Below are positions 15,945 to 19,406 of a stretch of DNA of 64,000 bases, piece after piece (within the stretch, counting starts at the first letter, position 1; each line of letters opens with the position of its first letter). This DNA is from Streptomyces sp. NBC_00654. Its GTDB lineage: Bacteria; Actinomycetota; Actinomycetes; Streptomycetales; Streptomycetaceae. Made by a program: the position numbers and the translations under genes. The notes under the pieces are model-generated. The model searched no databases. It was not told the DNA's origin and worked only from the letters and a program-made list of their open reading frames with translations. The stretch covers positions 868,001-932,000 of the forward strand of contig NZ_JAPEOB010000002.1 in NCBI RefSeq assembly GCF_026341775.1, in the 5' to 3' direction.

Positions 15945-16973
15945 CTACGGCTCACCGGCCGCGGCGGTGAGCTCCTCGATCATCACGGCGACGGCGGCCT
16001 CGGTCATCCGATGCCCTTCTGACGTCTCCACGATGGCGCCCCGGGTGACACGGGAACTCCACCAGTCCTCCAGGAAGCCGGGGGCGTACCCGCCGGTGCG
16101 GAAGCCGAAGGGGTCGGACACAAGACAGAAGACGATCATGAGCTCGTAGTCCGGGCTCGCGTAGGAGCGCTCCTGCGTGTCCGGCGCCCTGAGGTATCGC
16201 GCGAAGGAGTCGACCCGGTTGCCGCGGGTGAACAGCCAGAACAGGCAGTCGTACATCAGCGTCGAACGCGCGTCGGCGTGCAGGGAGAAGAACCCCTTCT
16301 CCCGCACGATGGCCTCGGCGAGCCGCCTCAGGAGCCCGTCCGCGTCCGGCAGAACGTCCTCGGCCTCCCGGAAGGCGCGCAGCAGAACGGGTGAGAAGCT
16401 GCCCTCGCGCACCGTGGCGAGGGCGGCGAGCCGGTCCTCCTCCGAGGTGTCGTGGACCGACGCCTCGACCAGACCCTCGACGAACGCCTCGAAGGTCTCC
16501 GCCACCGGGGTGACGGCGAAGTCGTCCTCCTGGTCGACGTGCACCACCGACGGCTCGCCGTCCTTGCCGCAGGCGCGGTAGTCGAGGGCGAGCATGTCGT
16601 GGCCGGCCGAGGGTGTGTCGGCGAAGTAGACGCCGATGTCGGGGTACTCCCACATGTCGATCCAGAAACGGCTGCCGAACTCGCCGCCGAGCGAGTTCGG
16701 CTTCGTGCGTCCGATGCCCATGATCCCGTTGATGGCGATGTGGTCCTCGGCCCAGGATGTCGGCTCGGTCATGGGAAAGCAGTCGCGGGCCGGGATACCG
16801 CCGTTGTGCGCGCGCATCAGGGCGACATAGGAGGCGGGCAGACGGTAGCCGCCGATCTCCTTCTCCAGGGAGACGATCTGTTCCGGCGACGGCGGGTCCT
16901 CGACGTAGTTGTCCAGCGCGTACGCCGAGTCCTCCCAGAAGCCGGTGCCGTCGAAGCCCTCGAAGTACCCCAC
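15945..16973 (-). CDS. SMI1/KNR4-family protein
   Basis: About 342 residues. The SMI1/KNR4 (SUKH) domain occupies the N-terminal 170 residues: 'PSPEQIVSLEKEIGGYRLPA', 'LMRAHNGG', and the later 'MLALDYRACGKDGEPSVVHVD'. The C-terminal half is helical and unassigned. The frame is open to 17153, but GAAGGAG lies just upstream of a GTG-GTG pair, and the second GTG (16973) has the better spacing. SUKH proteins are often immunity or regulatory proteins in toxin loci; no toxin is adjacent. The gene diverges from the peptide/JmjC cassette, with 285 bases between the starts. Confidence 0.8.
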   Translation of the reverse strand: MGYFEGFDGTGFWEDSAYALDNYVEDPPSPEQIVSLEKEIGGYRLPASYVALMRAHNGGIPARDCFPMTEPTSWAEDHIAINGIMGIGRTKPNSLGGEFGSRFWIDMWEYPDIGVYFADTPSAGHDMLALDYRACGKDGEPSVVHVDQEDDFAVTPVAETFEAFVEGLVEASVHDTSEEDRLAALATVREGSFSPVLLRAFREAEDVLPDADGLLRRLAEAIVREKGFFSLHADARSTLMYDCLFWLFTRGNRVDSFARYLRAPDTQERSYASPDYELMIVFCLVSDPFGFRTGGYAPGFLEDWWSSRVTRGAIVETSEGHRMTEAAVAVMIEELTAAAGEP

Positions 16974-17257
16974 CACGTTCTCCTTCGCGTATGCGCCCGC
17001 AATCCTATCGAGGCCCGGCGACCCGCTCGTGCGGCCGGGGCGCACAACGGCGTACGGCCGCGCCACGGGCCTGACCGGGCCCGGCGTCAAGAAAACCGTC
17101 AGGGCCGTATCGAACCCGTATGAGGCCTGTCCAAGAGGTGAAGCATGCAGCAACCATTGATCACGGCACCGGATTTCGGGGCCGCAATCGATGACCGGGC
17201 ACCGGCCGACGGCCGGCGCTCGGCGACGCCCGGATCCACCGGGAACAAGGAGAGTTC

Positions 17258-17458
17258 ATGAACGTCCGCCAGGATGCCGCCGCACCGCAGCCGACCAAGC
17301 GCGCTCGGCTGACCAAGCGCGCCGCGCTCTCCGTGGCCGCGGCCGCCGTCATCGGTGGTGCCGCCTTCGCGCCGTCCGCGGTCGCGAACACGGGGCCGTC
17401 GTCGTCGGAACAGCAGACCACCGCGGGCTGCGGCGAATGCTACCCGGACGTCATCTGA
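17258..17458 (+). CDS. Small exported peptide, candidate precursor of a modified peptide
   Basis: 66 residues with AAGGAG at 17247-17252, 5 bases before the ATG. The N-terminus is basic (KR at 14-15 and 20-21), followed by an alanine-rich hydrophobic core (22-39) and an A-V-A site at 41-43. Cleavage there would release 23 residues, Asn44 to Ile66, ending 'TAGCGECYPDVI' with Cys58 and Cys61. 'LTKRAAL' resembles a Tat signal with KR in place of RR, which would allow export after cytoplasmic modification. A strong hairpin and two JmjC/cupin oxygenase genes follow on the same strand. I do not recognise the peptide family. Precursor status is inference from size and context; a plain secreted peptide is the alternative. 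Confidence 0.7.
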   Translation: MNVRQDAAAPQPTKRARLTKRAALSVAAAAVIGGAAFAPSAVANTGPSSSEQQTTAGCGECYPDVI

Positions 17459-17475
17459 CCTTCCGGCACGACCCC

Positions 17476-17509
17476 GTGGGCCCACCGGCGATCGGACCGG
17501 TGGGCCCAC
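17476..17509 (+). terminator. Intergenic hairpin between peptide gene and first JmjC gene (attenuator-like)
   Basis: Perfect 13-bp arms, GTGGGCCCACCGG at 17476-17488 and its complement at 17497-17509, around an 8-base loop. It begins 18 bases after the peptide stop and ends 18 bases before the next start. That position suits partial termination, giving more peptide mRNA than enzyme mRNA, or a 3'-end stabiliser. Confidence 0.78.
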
Positions 17510-17527
17510 CCCAACGAGAGGCGGACC

Positions 17528-18397
17528 ATGAACTGGTTCGAACGGTGCGTACCGGACACCGAGACGTTCCTGCGTACCCACTGGCGTACGGCCCCGGTGG
17601 TCCTCCGGCCCGCCGAACCGCCGCTTGAGCTGCTGACCGGCGCGGGGCTCGACGCGATCCTGGACGGCGGACTGTTGCGCACCCCGTACGCGGGCCTCTA
17701 CACGGCGGACGGCCAGATCCCCGACGAGCGGTTCTGCCCGCCCCGCCGGGTCACCGGACGTGCCGTGGAGGGCTATGTCGACGGACAGGCCGTCCGCGAC
17801 CTCATCCGGGACGAACGCGCCACGTTGCAGCTGCGATACGTCGACCAGTGGCACCCACCCGTACGCGCGCTCGCGGCCGGCATCGGCGAACAGCTCGGGC
17901 GCCTGGTGGAAGCGTTCTACTTCTTCTCCCAGCCCGGCCGCCACGGGCCGGTGCACCGCGACGACGGCGATCTGCTGGCGATCCAGCTCGGCGGCGCCAA
18001 ACGGTGGCACGTGTACGCCGGGCCCGCCGACGCGAACTGGGAGCCGGTCCGGGCGGACGAACCGGGGCCGCTGCTCCTCGACACCGTCGTACACCCCGGC
18101 GAAATCCTTTACGTACCCAGGGGTTTCGCGCACACGGCGGCGGCGGTGGGGGACGCTCCCTCGGCCCATCTCACGGTGGTGATCCGCGAGGCCGGCACCG
18201 ACCATCTGCGCAACGCCCTGCTGTCCCGGATCTCCGGGGGAATCACCCTCCCGGGCCGTCCGCTGGACGACGACGCCCTGCTCGGCGCCGCGGCCTCCCT
18301 GCTCGGACACCTCCGGGAGCAGTTGGCCGACGTGACGCCCGAGGCCCTCGTGGCCCAGGCCCGGCCGCACGCCTTCAGCAGCCGCCCGACCGCCTGA
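17528..18397 (+). CDS. JmjC/cupin-domain oxygenase, first of two paralogs
   Basis: 289 residues of the cupin_4/JmjC (ROXA/NO66-like) family of Fe(II)/2-oxoglutarate protein hydroxylases. The N-terminal signature is 'FLRTHWRTAPVVLRP'. The metal triad is visible as His143-x-Asp145 in 'GPVHRDDGDLLA' and distal His202 in 'PRGFAHTAAAV'. 'GGAKRWHVY' supplies a basic residue near the cosubstrate. A C-terminal helical/winged-helix-like region follows (about 230-289). All catalytic residues are present. The preceding ribosome site is GAGAGGCGG. Position directly behind the peptide gene suggests the peptide as substrate; this is inference. Confidence 0.85.
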   Translation: MNWFERCVPDTETFLRTHWRTAPVVLRPAEPPLELLTGAGLDAILDGGLLRTPYAGLYTADGQIPDERFCPPRRVTGRAVEGYVDGQAVRDLIRDERATLQLRYVDQWHPPVRALAAGIGEQLGRLVEAFYFFSQPGRHGPVHRDDGDLLAIQLGGAKRWHVYAGPADANWEPVRADEPGPLLLDTVVHPGEILYVPRGFAHTAAAVGDAPSAHLTVVIREAGTDHLRNALLSRISGGITLPGRPLDDDALLGAAASLLGHLREQLADVTPEALVAQARPHAFSSRPTA

Positions 18398-18482
18398 CAC
18401 CGTCCCGGCGGCACCATCCGCCGCCCCCCGCACCGCTGGTGCCATCGCGCGCCACCGCGGCGTGAAAGGAAGAGCAACGACC

Positions 18483-19406
18483 ATGGACTGGCTGACCCGG
18501 TGCGTACCGGAACCCGAGACGTTCTTCGCCGGCCACTGGCGGAAGGAGCCCGTCGTACTGCGCCCCGACAGCCCTCCCGTGGATGTGCTGACGGTCGCCG
18601 AGGTGGACCGTCTCCTGGACGCCGGGACCCTGGCGACCCCCTACGTCCAACTCGTCCACGAGGAGAGCGTGGTGGCGCCGGAGCGCTTCTGCCTTCCACG
18701 CGTGGTTCTCGGCGAGATCGTCGAGCGGTACGTGGACGCCGGGTCGGTCCGCCGGATCGTCGCGGAGGAGCGGGCCACCCTGCTCCTCCGCTACGTCGAC
18801 CAGTGGCACGCGGGTGTACGCGATCTCACGGACGGGCTCGCCGAGCGGTTCGCACGGCAGGTCGAGGCGTTCTACTTCCTCACCCCGCCCGGCACACAGG
18901 GCCGCCCCGTGCACCGCGACGACGCCGACATCCTCGCCGTCCAGATCCACGGCGCGAAGCGCTGGCGGGTGTACGGCGGACCGGCGGACGGGGAATGGCA
19001 GCCCGAACGGGCGGCGGGCGACCTGGGCGCCCCGCTCCTGGAAACGGTACTCGGGGAGGGCGAAGTCCTGTATGTGCCACGGGCGTTCGCGCACTCCGCC
19101 GTGGCAGTGGGCGACACCCCGTCGGCGCACCTGTCACTGACCGTACGGGAGGCCGGCACCGCCCAGCTCTACGCGCTGGCACGGGCCCTGCTGCTGACCG
19201 GTGACGAGATCGCGCCGCGCCCCAACGACGACGCCTCCCTGCACACGGCCGCGTCCGGCCTCCTCGCGCACTTCCGGGCCACACTCGCCGAACTCACCCC
19301 CGGGGAACTGGTGGAGCTCGCGCGGGAAACCATGCGCACGGAGCGCCCTTCGCCCGGACGCCCGCTGAGCGACCTGATCGGTACGGGGCCGACGCGCGGC
19401 GCCTGA
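18483..19406 (+). CDS. JmjC/cupin-domain oxygenase, second paralog
   Basis: 307 residues, clearly paralogous to the preceding gene over its whole length (shared 'RCVP-ETF--HWR--PVVLRP', 'ERATL-LRYVDQWH', 'VHRDD-D-LA-Q--GAKRW'). Metal ligands His144, Asp146 and His204 ('RAFAHSAVAV') are intact. The start is ATG 18483, with GAAAGGAAGAG about 8 bases upstream; a frame-open codon at 18462 lies ahead of that site. The gap to the first paralog is 85 bases, so it is likely cotranscribed. Two diverged copies kept side by side suggest two different target residues or sequential steps rather than redundancy. Confidence 0.85.
   Translation: MDWLTRCVPEPETFFAGHWRKEPVVLRPDSPPVDVLTVAEVDRLLDAGTLATPYVQLVHEESVVAPERFCLPRVVLGEIVERYVDAGSVRRIVAEERATLLLRYVDQWHAGVRDLTDGLAERFARQVEAFYFLTPPGTQGRPVHRDDADILAVQIHGAKRWRVYGGPADGEWQPERAAGDLGAPLLETVLGEGEVLYVPRAFAHSAVAVGDTPSAHLSLTVREAGTAQLYALARALLLTGDEIAPRPNDDASLHTAASGLLAHFRATLAELTPGELVELARETMRTERPSPGRPLSDLIGTGPTRGA

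Follow-up and report, generated by a model that had tools for sequence, protein, structure and literature searches.

Characterised ribosomal oxygenases (ROX) have a C-terminal winged-helix domain. Among the ribosomally synthesised and post-translationally modified peptides (RiPPs), biphenomycin has the sole pathway with JmjC/cupin oxygenases that we found described; according to those parts of the reports that we consulted, its enzymes BipG and PbsQ hydroxylate ornithine (PMC12707348, PMC12257519). A Sec signal on a RiPP precursor likewise has a precedent in the bufferins, going by the consulted part of PMC12452194. Here we describe a locus in the 9.6-Mb genome of Streptomyces sp. NBC_00654, where a gene for a 66-aa peptide precedes a tandem pair of genes for JmjC oxygenases (JmjC1 and JmjC2). 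The stretch analysed, hereafter the window, comprises 64,000 nucleotides (positions 868,001 to 932,000 of contig NZ_JAPEOB010000002.1). Judging from sequence comparisons, these three genes probably form a minimal RiPP-type system, in which the cytosolic JmjC pair would recognise and oxidise the C-terminal end of the precursor, after which Sec would export it. The system is real, conserved and more general than the initial annotation of the window had supposed.

The peptide gene lies upstream of the tandem pair in all 19 distinct pair loci, which come from Streptomyces and Kitasatospora. JmjC1 matched 38 of 392 same-genus genomes at 1e-20, and a tandem pair with at least 52% identity was present in six of the 392, including the window's own. 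The peptide matched 20 of the same genomes at 1e-3: the six best matches (E <1e-10) fell in precisely the six pair genomes, each beside the pair (G150 having two copies), and the other 14 were weak matches to the signal part inside frames of 174 to 704 aa. Six pair loci, including those of Streptomyces atratus, S. hiroshimensis and Kitasatospora griseola, came from a scan of organism-named genome contigs, and a family-wide search of 297 genomes yielded ten pairs besides the window's own. A class-level search gave a match in 4 of 296 genomes, three of them same-genus, and no further pair locus was found when sampling was extended to 70 genomes from the genus to which G459 belongs and to 160 relatives. 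The initial annotation had asked whether the peptide always sits beside paired JmjC genes, and this is borne out both by the confinement of strong genome-search matches to such loci and by the 19 loci themselves; pairs regularly devoid of the peptide, which it had regarded as contrary to its proposal, were looked for and did not turn up. Four loci (L056, L085, L143 and L146) carry the peptide gene as two or three near-identical tandem copies, and in L057 (Streptomyces sp. ISL-66) a TGG (Trp) codon replaces the stop after YPDVI, so that the frame continues.

The peptide gene and its predicted parts are as follows.

17258..17458, + strand: gene for the putative 66-aa precursor peptide (ATG start, ORF calling; homologues flank every JmjC pair found)
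17247..17252, + strand: ribosome-binding site AAGGAG, 5 nt ahead of the ATG (from the sequence)
17258..17386, + strand: signal-peptide part, residues 1-43, basic and hydrophobic with the end AVA (Sec-like by inspection)
17387..17455, + strand: predicted mature 23-residue peptide, residues 44-66, NTGPSSSEQQTTAGCGECYPDVI (from the translation)
17429..17455, + strand: conserved core C-x2-C-x2-D-V-[I/M], the last nine codons (under purifying selection)

Both the 66-residue open reading frame (ORF) and its good ribosome site had been read correctly in the initial annotation. The core of the window peptide is CGECYPDVI; across 17 genes pN/pS is 0.29 in the last nine codons versus 0.74 across the entire gene. 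A protein database search with the peptide retrieved seven homologues at E 0.001, the named ones being entered as "hypothetical protein". The signal looks Sec-like by eye, with an AxA-type site. It had earlier been described as a KR-type, Tat-like signal, a description that fails because KR is not fixed: the basic pair in relatives may be KR, RK, RR, RQ or RH. Tat export was accordingly rejected for want of a twin-arginine retained in the family, and Sec is favoured since the twin-basic pair varies and the hydrophobic stretch and AxA-like end are constant among relatives. A 38-codon ORF at 17144-17261 overlaps the start of the peptide gene with its stop (ATGA).

The two genes downstream encode paralogous enzymes with the following landmarks.

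17528..18397, + strand: JmjC1, a PF08007 JmjC_2 oxygenase of 289 aa (Pfam, structure comparison)
17954..17962, + strand: HxD metal motif of JmjC1 (H143, D145), invariant in 104 close-clade rows
18131..18133, + strand: distal metal His of JmjC1 (H202), from the alignment
18483..19406, + strand: JmjC2, a PF08007 JmjC_2 oxygenase of 307 aa from its ATG (Pfam, 53% identity to JmjC1)
18912..18920, + strand: HxD metal motif of JmjC2 (H144, D146), from the sequence
19092..19094, + strand: distal metal His of JmjC2 (H204), from the sequence

Both proteins score well above the PF08007 cut-off of 22 (53.5 bits for JmjC1 and 68.8 for JmjC2), and the claim of two full-length cupin_4/JmjC paralogues with intact HxD...H sites holds. 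The catalytic sets are complete (H143-D145-K158-H202 in JmjC1, H144-D146-K159-H204 in JmjC2), with a conserved Lys that presumably holds 2-oxoglutarate (2OG), and the four residues are retained across the 104 close-clade rows except in three proteins from two loci. Arg at position 220, present throughout the clade, is a candidate for holding a carboxylate. No NCBIfam model matches either protein, and no unit resembling a RiPP recognition element (RRE) is visible by eye in the predicted secondary structure of JmjC1. The nearest solved structures are NO66, MINA53 and YcfD, and one source labels two relatives "ribosomal protein L16 Arg81 hydroxylase". These likenesses would suit a pair that hydroxylates ribosomal or other proteins in the manner of the ROX family, the peptide being an unrelated secreted product of the same operon. 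We retain an ordinary ribosomal oxygenase only as a very improbable alternative: the pair is patchily distributed (6 of 392 same-genus genomes) and constantly linked to the peptide, its relatives lie in RiPP-like contexts, and the model of JmjC1, which ends at 289 aa, aligns to residues 188-502 of NO66 only, leaving the C-terminal part of NO66 without an aligned counterpart.

A tree of 115 JmjC proteins, with a bootstrap still short of full convergence, gathers the first genes from each of the 19 pairs in one clade (100/100) and the second genes in another (99/93). Because these two clades are sisters (99/89), the pair is best explained by a single duplication with retention of both copies. 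Single-copy relatives of the pair enzymes are about 38-52% identical.

Going by their gene neighbourhoods, these closest relatives, each a lone JmjC gene, lie in RiPP-like clusters that represent six or more kinds besides that of the window. The comparison covered 92 loci, namely 88 fetched regions (30 + 58) and four of the six organism-named loci (L084 and L088 were left out beside L055 and L057); excluded were the four lowest-scoring same-genus matches that fell outside the clade, along with partial matches beyond the 88 fetched regions. A JmjC gene with a start codon was recovered at 1e-15 in 91 of the 92, L078 (a partial JmjC) being dropped, and setting aside five distant JmjC sets (L076 and L079-L082) left 86 close-clade loci. 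L145 repeats L085 and is counted among the 86 and not among the 19; L057, L150 and L059 were labelled by hand. Cytochrome P450 genes stand beside JmjC in 23 of 23 loci of the P450 kind, and in the LanB/LanC kind LanB is found in 17 and LanC in 15 of 18 loci. An ATP-binding cassette (ABC) transporter with a C39 leader peptidase was matched in five of seven loci with Gly-Gly (GG) leaders, by a probe that may also catch other ABC transporters. L150 encodes a sactipeptide maturase of the StsB family (673 bits, cut-off 625), its peptide scoring 36.5 bits against StsA, under the cut-off of 42; L059 encodes a SagD-type YcaO protein (262 against 219); and peptides with an SGG leader and the end EVI or LVI occur in three loci, their match to an NHLP-type model being weak (14 bits, cut-off 40). 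This context lends good support to the RiPP reading. What the initial annotation had proposed stands as regards one conserved unit of peptide and pair, whose enzyme clade occurs in RiPP-like clusters, and falls as regards the Tat-type signal.

Several observations on these surroundings are recorded in their own right. The P450 kind (L064, L066, L071, L073 and 19 more) has a peptide of about 27 residues ending ..LHVI, in one case ..NHLI, and one such peptide that was tested matched no NCBIfam model. Four P450-type loci (L166, from 5127, and three more) contain an extra conserved small ORF, several kb from JmjC, that starts like a leader and is rich in Cys and Trp towards its end. L060-L062 have a 20-aa peptide (e.g., MMKHASILRPRLDKVKPQSR) next to genes for an M16 peptidase and a JmjC protein from the same clade, an arrangement that resembles a small RiPP kind in its own right. 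Among the distant sets, four of five loci have YcaO genes, and L076 and L079 each have one JmjC protein without the metal residues.

What the initial annotation missed is a C-terminal Ile common to unrelated precursors, which suggests that the C-terminus rather than the leader is read. Clustering of the small intergenic ORFs that surround the JmjC genes, with no filter on their ends, gave six conserved families with a terminal Ile: the window type (Ile in 16 peptides and Met in three, not counting a stray small ORF of L180 that ends in Asp and clustered with them), the P450 type ..LHVI (16/16), an FxLD-like LanB/LanC type ending ..YCI or ..KTTI (15/15), a second LanB/LanC type ending ..CDCI (2/2), the GG-leader type ending ..CVI or ..NCI (7/7) and the SGG type (3/3). 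The many other clusters of the run, mostly not RiPP-like by eye, have assorted end residues; a RiPP-like cluster with an end other than Ile is formed by the 20-aa peptides of the three M16 loci. Candidates picked by hand in L059 (..GCCI) and L150 (..ASVI and ..GEVI) also end in Ile. Altogether 73 of the 86 close-clade loci have an Ile-type candidate (69 with Ile, three with Met and one read-through), the remaining 13 comprising three M16 loci and ten without such a candidate; as background, 10 of 968 large ORFs in these loci end in Ile. The penultimate residue is Val, Cys or Thr in the clustered-family loci, with Leu as the single exception. Since the leaders of the Ile-type kinds share nothing by eye and the C-terminal Ile is common to them, an enzyme common to the kinds would most simply read the C-terminus.

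We put forward, as a proposal with an even chance of being right, that the Streptomycetaceae JmjC clade tailors RiPPs of different classes independently of any leader, recognising a free C-terminal [V/C/T]-Ile and oxidising the last residue of otherwise unrelated peptides (lanthipeptides, sactipeptides, azole-containing, P450-modified and GG-leader peptides). The window would hold its stripped-down form, a Sec-exported peptide with an enzyme pair, as a new RiPP class.

A number of points weigh against the minimal RiPP reading with oxidation of the C-terminal end. Small ORFs have a higher Ile background (3.3% of 2821, the candidates included); no Ile-type candidate came from ten loci, among them L151, which has a YcaO gene; and in the three M16-peptidase loci, whose enzymes are of the same clade, the 20-aa candidate ends in Arg. 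The GG-leader candidate of L167 ends in Leu, its relative in L162 ending Val-Ile; three window-type peptides end in Met, including that of L140, which has intact enzymes; and the database homologue P0002 ends FPDVM. The candidates of L059 and L150 were chosen with an Ile filter and are absent from the unfiltered clustering, and those of L065 and L067 were initially filtered in this way too, families with both later appearing in the unfiltered run. The export route has been read by eye, and the modification itself is what we infer. Finally, the enzymes might use the C-terminal Ile to recognise the peptide and oxidise a different residue. With these exceptions named, the C-terminal target is a good hypothesis.

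Taken as an explanation of its own, the last point would have the JmjC enzymes act on the precursor elsewhere in its core, giving for instance β-hydroxy-Asp in D-V-I or a modified Pro, Tyr or Cys. We think this possible though rather unlikely. In the window-type core Asp and Val never vary, whereas Met can stand in for Ile, and an enzyme of the multinuclear non-heme iron-dependent oxidative (MNIO) family is reported, in the part of the source consulted, to β-hydroxylate Asp in nitrilobacillin (PMC13060819). Against it, the C-terminal dipeptide is all that the Ile-type precursor kinds have in common, and several of them (..TRPYCI, ..AAHCVI) have neither Asp nor Glu among their five final residues. 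That the mark lies constantly at the last residue would also fit a residue destined for removal, the enzymes oxidising the α-carbon of the Ile so that it is lost and a C-terminal amide remains. This outcome appears improbable to us; we know of no JmjC enzyme that removes a C-terminal residue in this manner. The accessible part of PMC12636437 describes α-ketoglutarate-dependent HEXXH enzymes of RiPP pathways that cleave the backbone oxidatively to leave such an amide, and it also describes that Val at the cleavage site gave β-hydroxylation without cleavage.

Bearing on the link between the enzymes and the C-terminal Ile are the three pair loci with YPDVM (L140, L141 and L148). The JmjC1 protein of L141 carries Tyr in place of the distal metal His, and its JmjC2 protein Met in place of Lys; in L148 JmjC2 has Ala for Lys and Tyr for His. 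Catalytic losses thus affect two of the three Met loci versus none of the 16 other distinct pair loci, a pattern with a chance of 0.018 by simple counting, to be read as a post hoc figure with L140 and L141 being close kin. Its direction fits a C-terminal Ile that is retained only while the enzymes work, as far as sequences can indicate. Genome G513 holds L141 plus an intact pair with YPDVI (L142), and no enzyme residue that tracks the change from Ile to Met is common to all three Met loci.

For the window, then, we favour the following scheme, in which the modification, its target residue, the order of steps, the export route and the function of the product are all put forward conditionally. 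The 66-aa protein would be the precursor, its N-terminal Sec signal taking the place of a classical leader and its last ~23 residues becoming the product. One or both of the cytosolic Fe(II)/2OG JmjC oxygenases would bind the free C-terminal tail (D-V-I) and modify it while still in the cytoplasm, the compartment that contains 2OG and Fe(II). Oxidation would fall at or near the end, most simply yielding a hydroxylated C-terminal Ile and a second hydroxylated residue nearby (the invariant Asp or Val). Sec export would follow, with a signal peptidase cut after AVA, and the C-x2-C disulfide may close outside.

One further element lies between the peptide gene and JmjC1.

17476..17509, + strand: perfect 13-bp inverted repeat lacking a T tract, a likely intercistronic stem-loop (complementarity, RNA fold)

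Its arms (17476-17488 and 17497-17509) pair at 13 of 13 positions, and the fold over 81 nt has -38.7 kcal/mol with a z of -3.3, in agreement with the perfect hairpin noted earlier behind the peptide gene. Nine of the 19 distinct pair loci, the window included, have a strong hairpin (z -2.4 or lower) right behind the peptide, the hairpin sequences being unrelated; in the other ten the hairpin is weaker or missing. A role as terminator was rejected given the lack of a T tract and the occurrence of a strong version in nine of 19 loci; the hairpin may instead tune the ratio of peptide to enzyme mRNA.

The genes adjoining the window unit belong to the SMI1/KNR4-like and DUF1707 families of Pfam. 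The former is a divergent SMI1/KNR4 (SUKH) family gene on the minus strand (15945-16991), of which no relative was found in five other pair loci compared. A set of fixed neighbours was rejected: ORF clustering showed that beyond peptide and pair the surroundings differ between pair loci, with ORF calling incomplete enough to recover the JmjC genes themselves in just 14 of the 19. By tblastn, 11 of the 19 distinct loci have a LuxR-type regulator (PF00196) close to the pair; by ORF clustering, 10 do. None is near the window pair: the closest relative in the same genome (56%) is on another contig, and the sole match in the window is weak (E 1.2e-4) and confined to the helix-turn-helix part. On the opposite strand near this regulator, nine loci (among them L056, L058, L085, L086 and L143) have a second small secreted-looking peptide (..DTSWGGSCELPLCQP..). 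LanB, LanC and YcaO probes matched none of 20 pair loci, and a Pfam scan found no MNIO (DUF692), partner protein or B12-radical S-adenosylmethionine (SAM) enzyme among the genes adjoining the window pair.

If the proposal is right, numerous peptide natural products have their C-terminal ends completed alike by a single enzyme clade, the address being the C-terminus and not the leader. A JmjC_2 gene with a small ORF ending [V/C/T]-I would then be a handle for genome mining, and the enzymes would be candidate tools for the C-terminal modification of chosen peptides. With one peptide, two enzymes and general secretion, the RiPP system of the window would be very small and open to direct test.

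In the main texts of the open-access literature, a scope that mostly excludes subscription journals, we found no description of the pair, the peptide or the C-terminal Ile rule; individual clusters of the relatives may already figure in genome-mining tables. An article that notes RRE-fused JmjC proteins (PMC12710340) remarks on bacterial JmjC homologues in RiPP-like contexts, as seen here; in its consulted part there is no mention of a C-terminal Ile or of a JmjC pair accompanied by a Sec-exported peptide. The window system resembles biphenomycin in having a JmjC or cupin-fold oxygenase that would act on a RiPP precursor, BipG adding one hydroxyl (PMC12707348, in part); this likeness is drawn from descriptions and not from enzyme sequence. 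The biphenomycin target is an ornithine, made from Arg by an arginase, in an F-R-F motif (consulted parts of PMC12707348 and PMC12257519), whereas the window core is CGECYPDVI, and the biphenomycin cluster, as far as described there, includes an MNIO, a B12-radical SAM enzyme, a major facilitator superfamily transporter and a TldD peptidase, none of which is among the genes scanned beside the window pair. With the bufferins the system shares a Sec signal instead of a classical leader, a Cys-containing product and an iron oxygenase; the bufferin enzymes are MNIOs, mostly with a partner protein, according to the consulted part of PMC12452194, whereas here there are two JmjC proteins, and no other gene was seen to recur across the pair loci. 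With the ROX proteins NO66, MINA53 and YcfD the window enzymes share the fold, the HxD...H site and the conserved Lys; unlike them, they are shorter, leave the C-terminal part of NO66 unaligned, and belong to a small and patchy family whose clade resides in RiPP-like clusters.

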